A stretch of DNA of 34,492 nt from a virus. The stretch is from positions 1 through 34,492 of the IMG/VR virus record IMGVR_UViG_3300036398_003711; one strand, given 5' to 3'. The notes beneath the pieces were generated by a model. It saw only the letters and a list, made by a program, of their open reading frames with translations, made no database searches and was not told the DNA's origin. Shown piece after piece: positions 18,803-30,292 of the stretch. Position numbers and translations under genes: made by a program. Positions within the stretch are counted from its first letter, which is position 1; each line of letters starts with the position of its first letter.

Positions 18803-18831
18803 AAAAAAGGGACTATTCAGTCCCTTTTTTC
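18803..18831. terminator. bidirectional terminator
   Basis: AAAAAGGGACT pairs with AGTCCCTTTTT around a four-base loop ATTC, between the converging 18129+ and clpC-like genes. The clpC-like stop codon lies inside the stem. Confidence 0.9.
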
Positions 18832-20843
18832 TTTTTGGTTTTTTTGGTTTCCTTTTCTTTGAAAATTATACTTTCATTATCTACGGTTAGAATGTATTGT
18901 TCATTTTCTATAATTTTACCATTTAACACCTCTTCTGATACAAAATCTTCAATTTTATCTTGAATTGCTCTTTTGATTGGTCTGGCACCATATGTTTCAT
19001 CAAAACCAACTTTAGAAATTAATTCTAAAACTGAATCATCACAAGAAATATTATAATTCAAACCTTCTAATCTTTTAATTAGTTTATCGACCTCTAATTT
19101 AACAATTTGTTTTACTTCGTCTTCCTTCAATGTATTAAAAACAATAATTTCATCAATACGATTAAGGAATTCAGGGGCAAAGAATTTCTGCAATTCCTTT
19201 TTTAACATATCCCTTTTATGTTCCTCTTCAATGTAAACATTCGCGTTTGTTTTGAATCCAACACCAGTACCAAAATCTTGTAGTTTTTTGACACCAAGGT
19301 TTGAGGTCATAATAATGATACAATTCTTGAAATTAATTTTTCTTCCAAGACCATCAGTAAGATGTCCATCGTCTAAAACTTGGAGTAACGTTGCAAACAC
19401 GTCTTTATTTGCTTTCTCAATTTCATCGAATAAAATAACTGAATATGGTTTATTTTTCACTTGTTCGGTAAGTTGTCCCCCTTCATCGTAACCAACGTAA
19501 CCTGGAGGTGAACCAATTAATCTTGATATTGAATGTTTTTCTTGGAATTCTGACATATCAACACGGATTAGATTTTCTTCACTACCAAATATTTCCTTAG
19601 CTAATTGTTTGGCTAAATAAGTTTTACCCACACCTGTTGAGCCTAAGAAAATAAATGAACCAATTGGTTTATTAGGGTCTTTAATCCCCAATCTATTTCT
19701 CCTTATTGCTTTTGCGATTTTAAGAACAGCTTCTGATTGTCCAATAACTTTCGAAGCCAAATTGTTATCAAGAGATGAAAGTTTATTAGTTTCATCAGAA
19801 TCCATTTTTGAGACAGGAATCTTAGTCATATTAGATACAACTTCATAAACTAGTTCCACACTAACTTCTTTCTTTTTGTTTAATAAATCAAATTCGAATT
19901 TCTTTTTTTCCTCTTCTAACTTATCTAATATTTTTGTTTCCTTATCTCTTAAATCTGCAGCCAGTTCATAGTTTTGACTTTTTACAACATCTATTTTTTG
20001 TTTTTTTATTTCTTGGGCTTGTGTTTTCAAATCCTCCACAATTTGGGGCATTTTAATTTCAACCTGACTTCTTGCTCCGACTTCATCAATAATGTCAAAT
20101 GCCTTATCCGGAAATTCTCTATCTGTAATATATCTTTCTGCTAAATCAACACAAAGTTTAAGTACATCATCACTATAATTTACTTTATGGTAATTTTCAT
20201 ATTTGTCTTTGACATTTAATAAAATTTGTAATGTTTCATCTTTAGTTGATGGGTCAACAATTACTTTTTGGAATCGTCTTTCTAATGCCCCATCTTTTTC
20301 AAAATTCTTTCTATATTCATCCAAAGTGGTTGCACCAATACATTGGATTTCCCCTCTTGCTAAGGCTGGTTTAAATATGTTAGAGGCATCCAATGAACCT
20401 GATGAATTACCTGCACCAACAATTTGATGGATTTCATCGATAAACAAAATGATATTTGGGGCGGCTTGTAGTTCTTCTATAATCACCTTCATTCTTTCCT
20501 CAAATTGTCCTCTATATTTTGTACCTGCAACAATTGAGGTCATATCTAAGGACATAATTCTTTTATCCATTAGATTTCTTGGACAATCTCCCTTCAATAT
20601 TTTCAAGGCCAAACCTTCTACTATAGCGGTTTTTCCACAACCTGGTTCACCGATTATAATTGGATTATTTTTCTTTCTTCTTGATAATATTTGGGCTATT
20701 CTTGTTATTTCTCTATCTCTACCTACAACAGGGTCTAATTTTCCCTCCTCCGCAAGTTTAACCAAATCTTTTGCAAAATTATTTAATACTGGTGTGTCGC
20801 CCTTACCTTTACTTGAGTAATCTCCATCTTTAGATTCTATCAT
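18813..20843 (-). CDS. clpC: ClpC-type AAA+ unfoldase lacking the N-domain
   Basis: 676 residues from the ATG at 20843; the frame extends to a TTG at 20888, which I reject. It begins where cellular ClpC leaves its N-domain: GKGDTPVLNNFAKDL. D1: Walker A GEPGCGKTA (65-73), pore Tyr110, Walker B FIDE (134-137), Arg finger near 189-190. M-domain with a UVR-like stretch KSQNYELAADLRDKE (288-302). D2: Walker A GSTGVGKT (401-408), pore Tyr449, Walker B LFDE, sensor 2 GARPIKR. DFGTGVGF (523-530) matches the ClpP-docking loop position, so it probably feeds host ClpP. Lys-rich tail. Confidence 0.93.
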   Translation of the reverse strand: MIESKDGDYSSKGKGDTPVLNNFAKDLVKLAEEGKLDPVVGRDREITRIAQILSRRKKNNPIIIGEPGCGKTAIVEGLALKILKGDCPRNLMDKRIMSLDMTSIVAGTKYRGQFEERMKVIIEELQAAPNIILFIDEIHQIVGAGNSSGSLDASNIFKPALARGEIQCIGATTLDEYRKNFEKDGALERRFQKVIVDPSTKDETLQILLNVKDKYENYHKVNYSDDVLKLCVDLAERYITDREFPDKAFDIIDEVGARSQVEIKMPQIVEDLKTQAQEIKKQKIDVVKSQNYELAADLRDKETKILDKLEEEKKKFEFDLLNKKKEVSVELVYEVVSNMTKIPVSKMDSDETNKLSSLDNNLASKVIGQSEAVLKIAKAIRRNRLGIKDPNKPIGSFIFLGSTGVGKTYLAKQLAKEIFGSEENLIRVDMSEFQEKHSISRLIGSPPGYVGYDEGGQLTEQVKNKPYSVILFDEIEKANKDVFATLLQVLDDGHLTDGLGRKINFKNCIIIMTSNLGVKKLQDFGTGVGFKTNANVYIEEEHKRDMLKKELQKFFAPEFLNRIDEIIVFNTLKEDEVKQIVKLEVDKLIKRLEGLNYNISCDDSVLELISKVGFDETYGARPIKRAIQDKIEDFVSEEVLNGKIIENEQYILTVDNESIIFKEKETKKTKKKKGTE

Positions 20844-20890
20844 AACTTTTTTATTTAATAATAATGTTTTATTTGGTATTTTCAACAATC

Positions 20891-20925
20891 TTGTAATGAC
20901 AAAATGTCAGTATTTTTAATTACAA
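20891..20925. promoter_or_regulatory. inverted repeats in the clpC/UVR divergent intergenic region
   Basis: TTGTAAT (20891-20897) and ATTACAA (20919-20925) form a perfect inverted repeat, and TGAC-AAAAT-GTCA (20897-20909) a second one inside it. Placed between divergent genes, they could be an operator or a transcript-end hairpin. Confidence 0.4.
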
Positions 20926-20935
20926 AGTGACATTA

Positions 20936-20964
20936 TTGATTATCTTAATTAATTGGTATATAAT
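20936..20964 (+). promoter_or_regulatory. sigma70-like promoter TTGATT-N17-TATAAT
   Basis: TTGATT at 20936-20941 and TATAAT at 20959-20964 with a 17-base spacer, 45 bases before the ATG at 21010. One of two sigma70-like promoters in the window. Confidence 0.55.
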
Positions 20965-21009
20965 TCGTACAATACTAAGTAAAATAAACTTAATAACAAA
21001 CAATTTATT

Positions 21010-21447
21010 ATGGATAACGATTTTTATAAAAAATTTGAGAAAATTTTGGATGAGATTTTCGGTGGAAAACATAAACCAACAATTCCATTTGAAAGTTTCT
21101 TGGAGAATTTAAAGTATGATGACATTGATACTGATTTTAGTAAACTAAGAAATTCAGTTAGAAAGACAAAGGATGGAATTATTACTTCGATTCATTTTGT
21201 GATTAACCCTAACACAAAATGGTCAGCATCTAATTCAAATACAAAGAGGGATTTGGAAACTAAATTAAACGAATGTATCCAAAACCAAGATTTTGAACAG
21301 GCGGCTAAAATCAGAGACGAAATAAAAGAACTTCAGAAAAACAAAGGGAAAATTGAAACTCTCAAAAAAGAAATGGAAATAGCTATTGAAAAACAAGATT
21401 TCGAAAGGGCTATAGAAATCAGAGATGAATTAAAAAAAATTAATTAA
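21010..21447 (+). CDS. two-UVR-motif protein, candidate ClpC adaptor
   Basis: 145 residues. The C-terminal half has two UVR motifs in tandem: LETKLNECIQNQDFEQAAKI..RDEIKEL (82-108) and LKKEMEIAIEKQDFERAIEI..RDEL (118-141), each with the FExAxxxRDEI core. UVR motifs occur in UvrB/UvrC, the ClpC M-domain and McsA-type ClpC partners. The N-terminal 75 residues contain an FGGKHKPTIPFESFLENLKYDD segment (written here for position 17-38) and have no family I know. Divergent from the clpC-like gene; an adaptor or activator role is inferred. Confidence 0.8.
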   Translation: MDNDFYKKFEKILDEIFGGKHKPTIPFESFLENLKYDDIDTDFSKLRNSVRKTKDGIITSIHFVINPNTKWSASNSNTKRDLETKLNECIQNQDFEQAAKIRDEIKELQKNKGKIETLKKEMEIAIEKQDFERAIEIRDELKKIN

Positions 21448-21451
21448 CTTT

Positions 21452-21478
21452 AACCCCCGATATAAATGGGGGTTTTTT
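21452..21478 (+). terminator. intrinsic terminator
   Basis: AACCCCC (21452-21458) pairs with GGGGGTT (21468-21474), followed by TTTT. It ends the UVR gene transcript. Confidence 0.9.
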
Positions 21479-21490
21479 AAATTTAAAAAA

Positions 21491-21733
21491 ATGGCAATAT
21501 TAAAAGAAGAAATAGTAGGTACAAAAATTATAAATGAAGTACAATCAAGTAATTTAGTAAGAAGTGAGTATGATACAGCAACTAAAAAAATGATTGTTGA
21601 ATTCAAAAATGGAACTAAATATGAATATGATGAAGTACCGCACACAATTTACACTAGATTCAGGTTATCGGAATCCCAAGGTAAGTTTTTTAGTTCCACC
21701 ATCGCTAAAAATTACAAGTACAAAAAGGTTTGA
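21491..21733 (+). CDS. KTSC domain protein, 80 aa
   Basis: The protein is essentially one KTSC domain: SSNLVRSEYDTATKKMIVEF, NGTKYEYDEVPHTIYTRF, and SESQGKFFSSTIAKNYKYKKV (parts of 19-80) follow the family pattern, including SxGKFFxxxI. KTSC domains occur in phage and bacterial proteins, sometimes attached to lysyl-tRNA synthetase-like or RNA-related proteins; biochemical role unclear. Its TGA shares one base with the next ATG. Confidence 0.85.
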   Translation: MAILKEEIVGTKIINEVQSSNLVRSEYDTATKKMIVEFKNGTKYEYDEVPHTIYTRFRLSESQGKFFSSTIAKNYKYKKV

Positions 21734-22530
21734 TGTATATTTCCAATGTATGTGAATATTTATCAGACATGGATAATATTGAAAATATTTTAAGTAGTTT
21801 CGAGGTACAAGACCAGTTGTATCCAAAAATATGGTATCTACCAAATGAAAAACATATGGGTGACCCTGAAGGTCAGAAATATAAAATAAACCCAAAGGTT
21901 AGAAAAAATTTACTTGAGATAACTTACCAATTTATTGAAAGTTTGGACATTGACGTTGTTATTGAAGACATTATTGTAGTTGGTTCAATAGCTAACTATA
22001 ATTGGTCTAAGTTCTCAGACATTGACGTGCACATATTAGTTGATTACAAACAATTTTCCAATGAACTTAAAGATATGTACGTTGAATATTTTGATTTGAA
22101 AAAAGTAATTTTCAATCAAAAAAGAGATGTAAAAATGTTTGGTTTTGATGTTGAGTTTTTCATTGAGGATACTGATATGCAAGGTATCAGTGGAGGTGTT
22201 TATTCGTTACTGAATGATGAATGGTTAAAAACACCCAAAAGGTTTGATTTTAAAGTGGATTTGAAAGATGTAAAAAATAAATCTAAACAATGGATGAGAA
22301 CTATTGATTCTTCGATAAAAAATATGGAAGACCAAGATATTGACACAATCGAAAAAACACTAAATCAATTTAAAAATAAACTTAAAAAGTTTAGATTAAG
22401 TGGTTTAAAAGGGGGTGGTGAAATGAGCTTGGAAAATTTGGTTTTTAAAGTATTACGAAGAAATGGGTATATTGACAAATTATATAAAACGCCTTTAAAA
22501 CTTATAGATAATAAACTTTCTATTGAGTAA
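21733..22530 (+). CDS. nucleotidyltransferase-fold protein, 266 aa
   Basis: From ATG 21733 (an in-frame TTG at 21730 is rejected). DIIVVGSIANYNWSKFSDID (79-98) contains the polymerase-beta-type signature GS...DxD: Gly84-Ser85, Asp96 and Asp98. FDVEFFIED (138-146) supplies the third acid. Such enzymes transfer nucleotides to proteins, RNA or antibiotics. Related proteins occur next to T4-like structural genes, but the substrate here is unknown. C-terminal half helical and basic. Confidence 0.8.
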   Translation: MYISNVCEYLSDMDNIENILSSFEVQDQLYPKIWYLPNEKHMGDPEGQKYKINPKVRKNLLEITYQFIESLDIDVVIEDIIVVGSIANYNWSKFSDIDVHILVDYKQFSNELKDMYVEYFDLKKVIFNQKRDVKMFGFDVEFFIEDTDMQGISGGVYSLLNDEWLKTPKRFDFKVDLKDVKNKSKQWMRTIDSSIKNMEDQDIDTIEKTLNQFKNKLKKFRLSGLKGGGEMSLENLVFKVLRRNGYIDKLYKTPLKLIDNKLSIE

Positions 22531-26513: not shown

Positions 26514-28277
26514 ATGAGTTTAACAAAAGAACAAGTAATGATAGAATATGTAAGATGTATGAAAGATACACCTTACGCATTAAGAACATACCTTGAAACA
26601 TATGACAACACAGTTTCAAAATATGTCCCACTAGAGTTGTTTCCTGACCAAATATCATTATTAAATGACTACGAGGAATACAATGAAAATATTGCCTTGA
26701 AGTACAGACAAGCAGGAGTATCAACAGTTACGGCAGCATGGATATCTAAAAGAATAGCGTTTGCTAAAAAAACAAAACCTGAAAAGATTTTGATTATCGC
26801 AAATAAACTAGATACTTCTATGGAAATGGCCAATAAAATCAGGATGTTTATTGGACAATGGCCATCTTGGGTTGGTATTGATTTTTCAAGTGATAAAAAT
26901 TCACAAAAACACTATAAAACAAATAATGGTTGTGAGGTAAAAGCTGTTGCTACCTCTAAGGATGCCCTACGTGGTTTCACACCAACAATTCTTGTATTTG
27001 ATGAAGCTGCGTTCATTGATGCAGATTCTGACTTCTGGGCAGCTTGTATGGCCTCACTTTCTACTGGTGGTAAAGTTATTGTGGTGTCAACACCAAATGG
27101 TTATGACCCAATTTATTATGAAATATATAATCAGGCACATAGAAATATGAATGATTTCAAAATATCTGAAATGTTTTGGTACAGAGACCCAAGATATACA
27201 AAAGATTTATTTTTAGTTAAAACTCAAGATACTATTCACTACCTTCTAAACAAAGAAGAATATCCTAAAGATGAAATTATTAGTTGGGAAACTATACCAT
27301 TTGAAGAAAGAAATTTTGAGGAACTCAAGTTGATAATGGATTCAGGTTATAAACCTTGTTCTTCTTGGTTTGAAGGTATGGTTAAAAAATTGAAATATGA
27401 TAAAAGAAAAGTATCACAAGAGTTAGAGTGTAACTTCCTTGGTTCAGGTGATAACGTTTTTGATTCACTATTGATGCAAAGGGTAAAAGAGAATATGATT
27501 AGAGAACCCCAAAATAAAATGATTGGTAACTCTTTATGGATTTGGAAAGAACCTGTGATGGGTCACAAATATGTGATGGGTGTGGATGTGAGTAGAGGGG
27601 ATAGTGAGGACTTTAGTTCATTTCAAATTATTGACTTTGATGAAAGAGAACAAGTTGCGGAATATGTGGGTAAACTTCCACCTGATACGATGGCAGAAAT
27701 TTGTTATAAGTGGGGTAATATGTATAATTGTTTCATTGTAATAGATATAACAGGAGGAATGGGTGTTTCAACATCTAGAAAACTTCAAGAAATGGGTTAC
27801 AAAAATTTATATGTTGATGGTATTGATTTAGCCAATAAGTGGAAATATGACCCAAAGGCTTTAGAAAAGATACCGGGTTTAAATTTCAACAACAAACGTG
27901 TACAAATTATAGCATCATTTGAGGAAGCTATGAGACATCAGTTTAAAATTTATAGTTTACGATTATTCAATGAAATGAATACATTCGTATATGTAAATGG
28001 AAGACCAGACCATCAAAAGGGTCAACACGATGATTTAATTATGTCAATTGCAATGGCAACTTATGTTGCGGAATCATCATTCAGTAGTTTAGAAAAGGTG
28101 ACCGAACAAACTAAAGCTATGTTAGAATCTTGGTCTGTTACTAACAATGAAACTGCAGCTAAACAGATTGATTTCAATCCCGTGATACCTTTTGGAACTG
28201 AGAGAATTAATCAAAGAAATCAAAACGCAAGTAAGGAGGACTATATGAAATACTCTTGGTTATTCGGAGGTAGATAA
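26514..28277 (+). CDS. terminase large subunit (T4 gp17-like)
   Basis: 587 residues, near T4 gp17 length (610). The ATPase domain has a Walker A-like KYRQAGVST (63-71), Walker B ILVFDE (159-164) and coupling motif VSTPNG (191-196). The RNase H-type nuclease has MGVDVSRGDSED with Asp358, FIVIDITGGMG with Asp411 in the slot where T4 has Glu, and QHDDLIMS with Asp506. It packages DNA through the portal from the prohead and cuts concatemers. Own late motif and terminator-isolated start. Confidence 0.96.
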   Translation: MSLTKEQVMIEYVRCMKDTPYALRTYLETYDNTVSKYVPLELFPDQISLLNDYEEYNENIALKYRQAGVSTVTAAWISKRIAFAKKTKPEKILIIANKLDTSMEMANKIRMFIGQWPSWVGIDFSSDKNSQKHYKTNNGCEVKAVATSKDALRGFTPTILVFDEAAFIDADSDFWAACMASLSTGGKVIVVSTPNGYDPIYYEIYNQAHRNMNDFKISEMFWYRDPRYTKDLFLVKTQDTIHYLLNKEEYPKDEIISWETIPFEERNFEELKLIMDSGYKPCSSWFEGMVKKLKYDKRKVSQELECNFLGSGDNVFDSLLMQRVKENMIREPQNKMIGNSLWIWKEPVMGHKYVMGVDVSRGDSEDFSSFQIIDFDEREQVAEYVGKLPPDTMAEICYKWGNMYNCFIVIDITGGMGVSTSRKLQEMGYKNLYVDGIDLANKWKYDPKALEKIPGLNFNNKRVQIIASFEEAMRHQFKIYSLRLFNEMNTFVYVNGRPDHQKGQHDDLIMSIAMATYVAESSFSSLEKVTEQTKAMLESWSVTNNETAAKQIDFNPVIPFGTERINQRNQNASKEDYMKYSWLFGGR

Positions 28278-28504: not shown

Positions 28505-30292
28505 ATGGAAAATAATCAAAATAATTTAACAGTTTGGCAAAGATTAACACAAGCATTCGGTCCTAATGCTTTACTTAATCAAGATTACCCAACTTATAGT
28601 TTCGATAGAAAGGAGTTATTAAAAACTAAATCAAAACAAGAATTTGATAAGGAATTACTCCAAGCACAACAAACTTACTACTTAGCAAATCAATGGACTA
28701 AGATTGAAAGTAACTTATACACTCAGGCTGTATATTACGAACCAACTAGATTGGCTTCGTTTTATGATTATGAATCTATGGAATATACACCCGAAATATC
28801 TGCTGCGTTAGACATTTATGGTGAGGAATCTACTACGGTTGACCAGAATGGGTATATGTTACAAATATACTCAGAATCAAAACGTATCAAGGGTATTTTA
28901 ATAGATTTATTTTTGAATGTTTTAGATTTAAATACAAATCTACCAATGTGGACTAGAAATACTTGTAAGTATGGTGATAACTTTGTCTATCTTAAACTTG
29001 ACCCTGAAAAAGGAGTTGTTGGTTGTATGCAATTACCAAATATCGAAATTGAACGTTTGGAAAGAGGTATGCCAGCGCAAGCAAGTAGACAAAACGTAGA
29101 AGAGCCAGCTGAAAACAAAGGACTAAGATTCAAGTGGAAAGCTAAAGATATGGAATTTAATTCTTGGGAAATAGCACACTTTAGATTATTAGGTGATGAT
29201 AGAAAGTTACCATATGGTACATCAATGTTAGAAAAGGCAAGGCGTATTTGGAAACAACTATTGTTATCTGAAGATGCGATGTTAATTTATAGAACATCAC
29301 GTGCACCTGAAAGAAGGGTGTTCAAAGTATTCGTTGGTAATATGGATGATAAAGATGTTGAACCATATGTACAACGTGTTGCAAACAAGTTCAAAAGAAG
29401 TCAGGTTGTTGATTCTCAAACAGGTAATGTGGATATGAGATTTAATCAAATGGCTGTTGACCAAGATTATTTCATTCCTGTACGTGATGCCGCTGCGGCA
29501 AGTCCGATTGATACATTACCTGGTGGTCAAAACTTAGGTGAGATTGCTGATATTGAATACATCCAAAAGAAACTACTTACTGCTTTACGTGTACCTAAAG
29601 CGTTTTTAGGTTTTGAAGAACCAGTTGGTGATGGTAAAAATTTATCATTAATTGATATTCGTTTTGCAAGAACAATTAACAGAATCCAAAAATCTATGGT
29701 TGCTGAGTTAAATAAGATTGCGATTGTACATTTATTCCTTTTAGGTTTTGAAGATGAATTATCCAATTTTACTTTAAGTTTAACAAACCCATCGAGTCAA
29801 GCAGATTTATTAAAAATTGACATATGGAAAGAGAAGGTCGCATTATATAAGGAATGTGTTACATCAATTGAGGGTATTGCACCAACTTCTGTTTCATGGG
29901 CTAAGAAACACGTTATGGGATTCTCTGATGAGGAAATCAAACTTGATTTACAACAACAGAGAATTGAAAAAGCTGTAGGTGCTGAGCTTACAAATACCGC
30001 AACAATTATAACAAATACTGGTGTGTTTGATAATGTTGATAAATTATATACTCAAACAACAGGTACAACATCAGGTGGGGCACCACCACCTCCAGGAGGA
30101 GCTGAAGGGGGAACTCCACCACCAGCAGGTGGTCCTGAAGGTATGGGTGAAACATTTAACAATAGAGATAATTTAAACATATTGTTGGAAAACGAAGGGA
30201 TATTTGAGGAAATGAGTTTTATTGATTTGTCCAAAGCCAAAAATTATTTGGGGGAAATGGAGAGTCAACTAAGTAAACTCCTAAAAGATTAA
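28505..30292 (+). CDS. portal protein (T4 gp20-like)
   Basis: 595 residues against about 524 in T4. Portal features: SFYDYESMEYTPEISAALDI (about 80-99), WEIAHFRLLGDDRKLPYGTS (about 221-240), RAPERRVFKVFVGNM, and YIQKKLLTALRVPKAFLGFE (about 355-374). It forms the dodecameric ring at the prohead vertex for DNA entry and exit and docks terminase. A Gly/Pro-rich insertion (TTSGGAPPPPGGAEGG) near 525-545 precedes a C-terminal helix. Position between terminase and prohead genes fits. Confidence 0.95.
   Translation: MENNQNNLTVWQRLTQAFGPNALLNQDYPTYSFDRKELLKTKSKQEFDKELLQAQQTYYLANQWTKIESNLYTQAVYYEPTRLASFYDYESMEYTPEISAALDIYGEESTTVDQNGYMLQIYSESKRIKGILIDLFLNVLDLNTNLPMWTRNTCKYGDNFVYLKLDPEKGVVGCMQLPNIEIERLERGMPAQASRQNVEEPAENKGLRFKWKAKDMEFNSWEIAHFRLLGDDRKLPYGTSMLEKARRIWKQLLLSEDAMLIYRTSRAPERRVFKVFVGNMDDKDVEPYVQRVANKFKRSQVVDSQTGNVDMRFNQMAVDQDYFIPVRDAAAASPIDTLPGGQNLGEIADIEYIQKKLLTALRVPKAFLGFEEPVGDGKNLSLIDIRFARTINRIQKSMVAELNKIAIVHLFLLGFEDELSNFTLSLTNPSSQADLLKIDIWKEKVALYKECVTSIEGIAPTSVSWAKKHVMGFSDEEIKLDLQQQRIEKAVGAELTNTATIITNTGVFDNVDKLYTQTTGTTSGGAPPPPGGAEGGTPPPAGGPEGMGETFNNRDNLNILLENEGIFEEMSFIDLSKAKNYLGEMESQLSKLLKD

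Follow-up and report, generated by a model that had tools for sequence, protein, structure and literature searches.

A phage double-UVR protein encoded divergently from an N-domain-less ClpC is a putative, optional M-domain-acting regulator or adaptor

A 34,492-nt virus record, analysed over its whole length and hereafter called the window, encodes a 145-residue protein with two UVR motifs, next to and divergent from a gene for a ClpC-like unfoldase that lacks the N-domain. The same arrangement recurs in related viruses. We describe the double-UVR protein as a putative M-domain-acting regulator or adaptor, optional for the phages that carry it; judged by its place beside clpC and by a DNA control element common to it and the other heat-shock proteins of the virus, it is probably the dedicated switch or adaptor of the N-domain-less ClpC. 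The window also carries a terminase gene (26514-28277) and a portal gene (28505-30292). It probably belongs to a large virus infecting Bacteroidota-type bacteria, and the Moraphages, a large freshwater phage lineage with predicted Bacteroidota hosts, or their kin, are the probable candidate lineage. The available part of the article on these phages reports DnaK, DnaJ, small heat-shock proteins and a ClpA-like core gene (Arch Virol 2025, PMC12619734); the term UVR has 0 hits in that text, which describes no ClpC-UVR pair or shared operator. Our data throughout are fragments of uncultured viruses, so that the absence of a gene from a fragment is weak evidence. The features of the locus are collected in the table.

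Table. Features of the double-UVR/clpC locus in the window.
Feature	Coordinates	Strand	Remarks
N-domain-less ClpC-like unfoldase	18813..20843	-	ORF open to TTG 20888; likely start ATG 20843-20841
ClpP-docking loop V-G-F of D2	19254..19262	-	[VIL]GF in 73/73 relatives
UVR-like M-domain motif, residues 291-320 of 691-aa ClpC ORF	19929..20018	-	21.3 bits, slightly below cut-off
Candidate clpC promoter TTGAAA-16-TATTAT	20858..20885	-	consensus match only
Operator-like palindrome TGACAAAATGTCA	20897..20909		sole window match at up to 1 mismatch
Second operator half-site TGACA	20928..20932		centre about 31 bp from first
Candidate UVR-gene promoter TTGATT-17-TATAAT	20936..20964	+	consensus match only
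Double-UVR protein gene	21010..21447	+	ATG start, 145 aa; Pfam UVR x2; 47-member family
N-terminal amphipathic, aromatic-containing helix, residues 2-17	21013..21060	+	AlphaFold2, pLDDT about 56-65, low confidence
Beta-hairpin, residues 48-62	21151..21195	+	AlphaFold2, low confidence
UVR motif 1, residues 80-110	21247..21339	+	Pfam UVR
UVR motif 2, residues 116-144	21355..21441	+	Pfam UVR
Terminator-like hairpin downstream of UVR gene	21452..21474	+	1 found, 0.2 expected
KTSC-domain gene, conserved far border of variable slot	21491..21733	+	Pfam

The Pfam UVR model (PF02151) matches the protein in two stretches (E 2.3e-22, 78.4 bits), above the curated cut-off of 21.5 that defines membership among UVR-motif proteins. 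The initial annotation was thus right in describing two tandem UVR motifs at the C-terminus, preceded by an N-terminus of unrecognised type: the first ~78 residues matched no family, Pfam and NCBIfam included. Two motifs are also present in every standalone UVR protein found in 50 records. In an alignment of 47 homologues the contact-type residues of both motifs are retained, namely F95 (F/Y, 47/47), R102 (47/47) and D103 (46/47) in motif 1, and F131 (F/Y, 47/47), R138 (47/47) and D139 (44/47) in motif 2, and residues E96, A98, R102, E132, I135 and R138 are invariant. The N-terminus is less conserved than these contact residues; its beta-hairpin follows the family consensus W-x-K-x-T-x-x-S-x-D-G-x(4)-T, with D55 in 41 and G56 in 45 of the 47 sequences. 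Two AlphaFold2 runs, one of them built from the 47 homologues, gave mean pLDDT values of 57 and 60. The UVR part was modelled as a chain of three helices (77-91, 95-127 and 131-144; pLDDT ~70), the long middle helix being common to both UVR hairpins, and the prediction of the N-terminal half is unreliable (pLDDT about 50). Searches for homologues in annotated phages gave no match above noise.

The nearest solved sequence in a PDB profile comparison is the UVR region of McsA (8wtb, E 6e-7), followed by the ClpC M-domain. McsA is also the best NCBIfam match (NF053706), restricted to the UVR part and scoring 40.3 bits against a cut-off of 210. The phage protein resembles McsA in being small, in its C-terminal UVR and in its position beside clpC in a heat-shock-type unit (ctsR-mcsA-mcsB-clpC for McsA). 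In contrast to McsA, it has two UVR motifs instead of one, a single cysteine in all and no CXXC zinc fingers, and its gene is divergent from clpC, not co-directional with it. The low score and the missing paired CXXC zinc fingers ruled out identity with McsA. Searches for McsB gave no match, and the control genomes gave none either. No UvrB/UvrC-type match of the N-terminus, which by the initial annotation would have spoken against its reading, was obtained with Pfam or NCBIfam; only the UVR part matches these repair proteins and no helicase or GIY-YIG/endonuclease domain accompanies it, so a role in DNA repair was discarded. MecA was likewise set aside, as no Pfam or NCBIfam match was obtained and the partner ClpC offers no N-domain for docking, and so was a CLPF-type protein, as Pfam detected no YccV/HspQ-like domain beside the UVR motifs.

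Among the cellular matches listed from a scan of 84,980 genomes, only the UVR part is shared with the phage protein, and those inspected among them were UvrB, UvrC or zinc-finger McsA-like genes. Together with the scores of the UVR motifs against the McsA, UvrB and UvrC families, these matches speak for an action on host machinery, in which the protein would activate host ClpC, a McsA/McsB-like system or UvrABC, or serve them as a decoy. We regard such a target as very improbable: the scores lie far under every family cut-off, zinc fingers are missing from the protein, and its gene is syntenic with clpC of the phage itself.

The divergent gene proved to be of the N-domain-less ClpC type that had first been ascribed to it. 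Its ORF (18813-20888, minus strand) contains the Pfam domains AAA, AAA_lid_9, AAA_2 and ClpB_D2-small, while Clp_N (PF02861) is absent from the window by Pfam and above cut-off in 0 of 29 records. The alignment with S. aureus ClpC (E 1e-221) begins at residue 155 of the latter, showing that the N-domain is absent; only 35-58 residues precede D1 in the ClpC of all 73 relatives, so that it is missing throughout. The other features of the ClpC class, D1, D2, a short UVR-like M-domain and the ClpP loop, are all present, and the aromatic residue and the R-D pair of the M-domain are kept in 73/73 relatives. Since the first in-frame ATG of clpC lies at 20843-20841, the true divergent spacer spans 20844-21009 (166 nt). 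Five of the 29 phage records (G011, G013, G018, G020 and G024; loci L093-L096 and L100-L103) encode their own ClpP. Taken with the intact docking loop, this sequence evidence suggests that the phage ClpC works in a protease and is more than a mere unfoldase.

In some relatives split inteins break clpC up into two or three separate ORFs (L004:6124-9879; also L005, L007, L010, L198, L206-L210 and L212). The interruptions lie in the Walker A motif of D1 (GEPG|C...HN|CGKT) and in that of D2 (GVGK|C...HN|TYLAK), L212 having both, and the C-terminal splicing region of the inteins matches TIGR01443. Several split genes have a free-standing ORF between their halves, endonuclease-like by inspection and without Pfam match, a layout that recalls the known 'fractured gene' arrangement. 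Introns were considered as an explanation of the splits and dismissed, as Rfam gave no match and split inteins were found instead.

Co-occurrence of the two genes in related phages, proposed in the initial annotation as a check, was assessed on 80 related virus loci collected starting at ClpC and another 80 starting at the UVR family. The nearest divergent neighbour of the UVR gene is clpC in 76 of the 78 UVR loci with readable upstream DNA, at a distance within 400 nt in 74 cases, of 450 nt in one and of 1,021 nt in one. The UVR-side loci comprise 55 distinct UVR proteins; the pairing is therefore not that of one phage sampled over and over. On a tree of 73 ClpC proteins, well-supported branches force at least 4 changes of the UVR label, which indicates that the association was repeatedly lost or regained and not inherited as one block. 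The conservation of the motifs in the 47 homologues and the recurrence of the pair in dozens of virus contigs show that the pairing is more than chance.

The position between clpC and the KTSC-domain gene is a variable slot, occupied, depending on the locus, by the UVR protein, Hsp20, DnaK, a 113-residue protein or nothing. About two thirds of the 73 N-domain-less ClpC loci have no UVR protein in it, among them contigs of 322 and 304 kb, so the UVR protein is optional, an accessory. The initial annotation had proposed a bespoke adaptor that replaces N-domain recruitment. This proposal is partly supported: the phage protein is tied to an N-domain-less ClpC (76/78), and its slot and operator, common to Hsp20 and DnaK, put it in the company of chaperone partners. 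To say that it replaces N-domain recruitment is too strong: none of the 73 ClpC proteins has an N-domain, yet most of their loci lack a UVR protein in the slot, showing that the machine can manage without it.

In 7 relatives Hsp20 lies divergently at exactly this place, with PF00011 confirmed in the three slot proteins tested (L066, L067 and L074), and the slot of L084 contains DnaK (PF00012). Two swaps can be seen on the ClpC tree: L083 (UVR) groups with L074 and L088 (Hsp20), and the sister group of L073 (Hsp20) consists of three loci that carry UVR. UVR and Hsp20 were found together in no slot, a non-overlap that is only mildly unexpected by chance. These swaps, the slot and operator common to both proteins and the aromatic helix at the N-terminus of the UVR protein would suit a holdase or sequestrase co-chaperone, whose N-terminal arm binds unfolding phage or host proteins and passes them to ClpC or DnaK in the manner of small heat-shock proteins, with the UVR motifs serving mainly for self-assembly. 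However, Pfam did not detect the alpha-crystallin domain (PF00011) in the UVR protein, which thus lacks the Hsp20 fold, and the N-terminus is less conserved than the UVR contact residues. Kinship with the N-terminus of phage Hsp20 was rejected after a profile comparison gave a weak result (probability 22%). Given also how little the non-overlap departs from chance, we consider a holdase unlikely.

The 113-residue slot protein (range 95-124 aa; KHYxKYIxTLGADxE...REGWTEKDLExPPYYPNDIM), found in L026-L035, L049-L064 and others, has no Pfam match. It was discarded as a partner because its occurrence is independent of the operator and overlaps only in part with that of UVR. Past the KTSC gene, at 21730-22530, the window carries a nucleotidyltransferase-like gene (PHROG 36119; weak NTP_transf_2), which keeps this place beside most slot types.

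The spacer of the window contains an operator-like palindrome and a second half-site (table). The consensus is TGACA-N3-TGTCA; relatives carry one or two copies, and full copies are mostly spaced by 31-32 or 20-22 bp, corresponding to three or two DNA turns. We compared the spacers of 73 distinct clpC loci, allowing at most one mismatch: the operator is present in 30 of 31 UVR/Hsp20/DnaK-type spacers versus 1 of 42 others, for a background of 0.9% of 305-nt windows. This association is strong when kinship is ignored (Fisher p 3e-18); in a kinship-aware comparison 4 of 5 well-supported independent pairs agree and 0 oppose it (sign test p 0.125, significance being out of reach). The exact palindrome has 45 matches in 37 large records against 2 for a reversed-pattern control, and it precedes 11 of 12 phage dnaK genes or operons, about 35-125 nt upstream. 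Candidate sigma-70-like hexamers flank the palindrome of the window, in a scan that yields no more of them than shuffled sequences do. We found no named regulator of the palindrome, and the literature provided nothing useful on a Bacteroidota heat-shock inverted repeat. The slot and operator common to UVR, Hsp20 and DnaK place the UVR protein among chaperone partners, and on these grounds it seems to belong to a chaperone regulon carried by the phage.

The palindrome was also observed elsewhere. It lies 20-110 nt upstream of a family of ~100-aa proteins (L170:2323-2619, L171, L172, L173, L177 and L178), possibly a further regulon member or the regulator itself, and one copy (L179:2181, or G001:12680) precedes a sigma-factor-like phage gene by about 270 nt. 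No exact palindrome is present near clpP in the five ClpP-encoding records; those loci have one-mismatch matches only, none of which was accepted as an operator, and clpP genes were not retained as targets.

Four loci have the UVR gene unlinked from clpC (L098, L099, L233 and L254). The operator is still present in L098 and L233, and in L098 dnaK begins 1 nt downstream of the UVR gene, away from clpC. This is compatible with a co-regulated stress gene that has no physical tie to ClpC, the pair persisting only through the common operator region. Against it stand the 76 linked cases and the failure of the other neighbour, the 113-residue protein, to follow the operator, and we judge it the least probable of the readings considered.

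Activation of ClpC normally runs through the N-domain. The usual activators would be powerless on the phage ClpC because their docking needs this domain. Control through the M-domain is documented: in S. aureus ClpC, F436, R443 and D444 form the head-to-head M-domain contacts of the inactive state, and their mutation activates the protein (PMC5699869). According to the available part of a further study, the same contacts join S. aureus delta-N-ClpC into head-to-head ring dimers, and this protein degrades casein and GFP-ssrA only when F436 is mutated as well (PMC12583610). ClpS retains its control over delta-NTD-ClpC1, exerted via the M-domain (PMC6274998), and plant UVR proteins are among those trapped together with CLPC1 (PMC8889267).

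The reading that we hold to be rather probable is that the phage ClpC has in the UVR protein a dedicated partner, which licenses ClpC(P) by capping its M-domains and binds clients with its N-terminus. The N-domain-less ClpC would be held inactive as head-to-head ring dimers via pairs of M-domains. As the aromatic, R and D residues are retained in both UVR motifs, the two hairpins could mimic the M-domain tip and pair with the M-domains of ClpC; this pairing would split the ring dimers and license ClpC(P), and the variable N-terminal part may bring the clients. Both proteins would be produced together, under proteostasis or infection-stage control. Binding, activation and client delivery are each inferred, with the conserved residues as the starting point. 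UVR motifs can also self-associate or bind UvrB/UvrC, so that M-domain binding is not the sole option.

The two motifs could conversely clamp the M-domains in a negative sense, keeping the phage ClpC inactive until needed and sparing the cell unrestrained ClpCP. Divergent co-expression from one operator suits a machine and its brake, M-domain-deregulated delta-N-ClpC is highly toxic according to the available text (PMC12583610), and ClpS inhibits delta-NTD-ClpC1 through the M-domain (PMC6274998). However, M-domain pairing already inactivates delta-N-ClpC, making a brake less needed, the ClpC of relatives without a UVR gene would be unbraked, and the company of Hsp20 and DnaK suggests a positive role. 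A brake is therefore quite unlikely, though less so than a host target or mere co-regulation.

The proposed activating partner has parallels in known systems. The plastid UVR proteins (CLPF, EXE1/2 and UVR1-4) are physically associated with the ClpC chaperone (PMC8889267), but they carry YccV-like, DUF151 or transglutaminase-like domains, none of which occurs in the phage protein, and their CLPC partner bears an N-domain. MecA, an established activator of ClpC, touches the M-domain and disrupts the head-to-head resting states (PMC5699869); it requires the N-domain, which the phage ClpC lacks. ClpL and delta-N-ClpC provide M-domain-linked head-to-head rings of an Hsp100, whereas the available part of that article describes no M-domain-mimicking partner protein (PMC12583610).

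A broader proposal, which we put forward tentatively and hold to be possible though doubtful, is that these phages have a heat-shock-like regulon with one phased palindromic operator for ClpC, DnaK, Hsp20 and the double-UVR protein, and that within it a UVR mimic of the M-domain would alone switch on an N-domain-less ClpCP, amounting to Hsp100 control without an N-domain. If this is true, a natural N-domain-less ClpC and its partner with a double contact motif would present M-domain control in isolation and directly testable. Large phages would then come equipped with a coordinated programme of proteostasis and not just with stray chaperone genes, and a DNA element would be available for finding its members.
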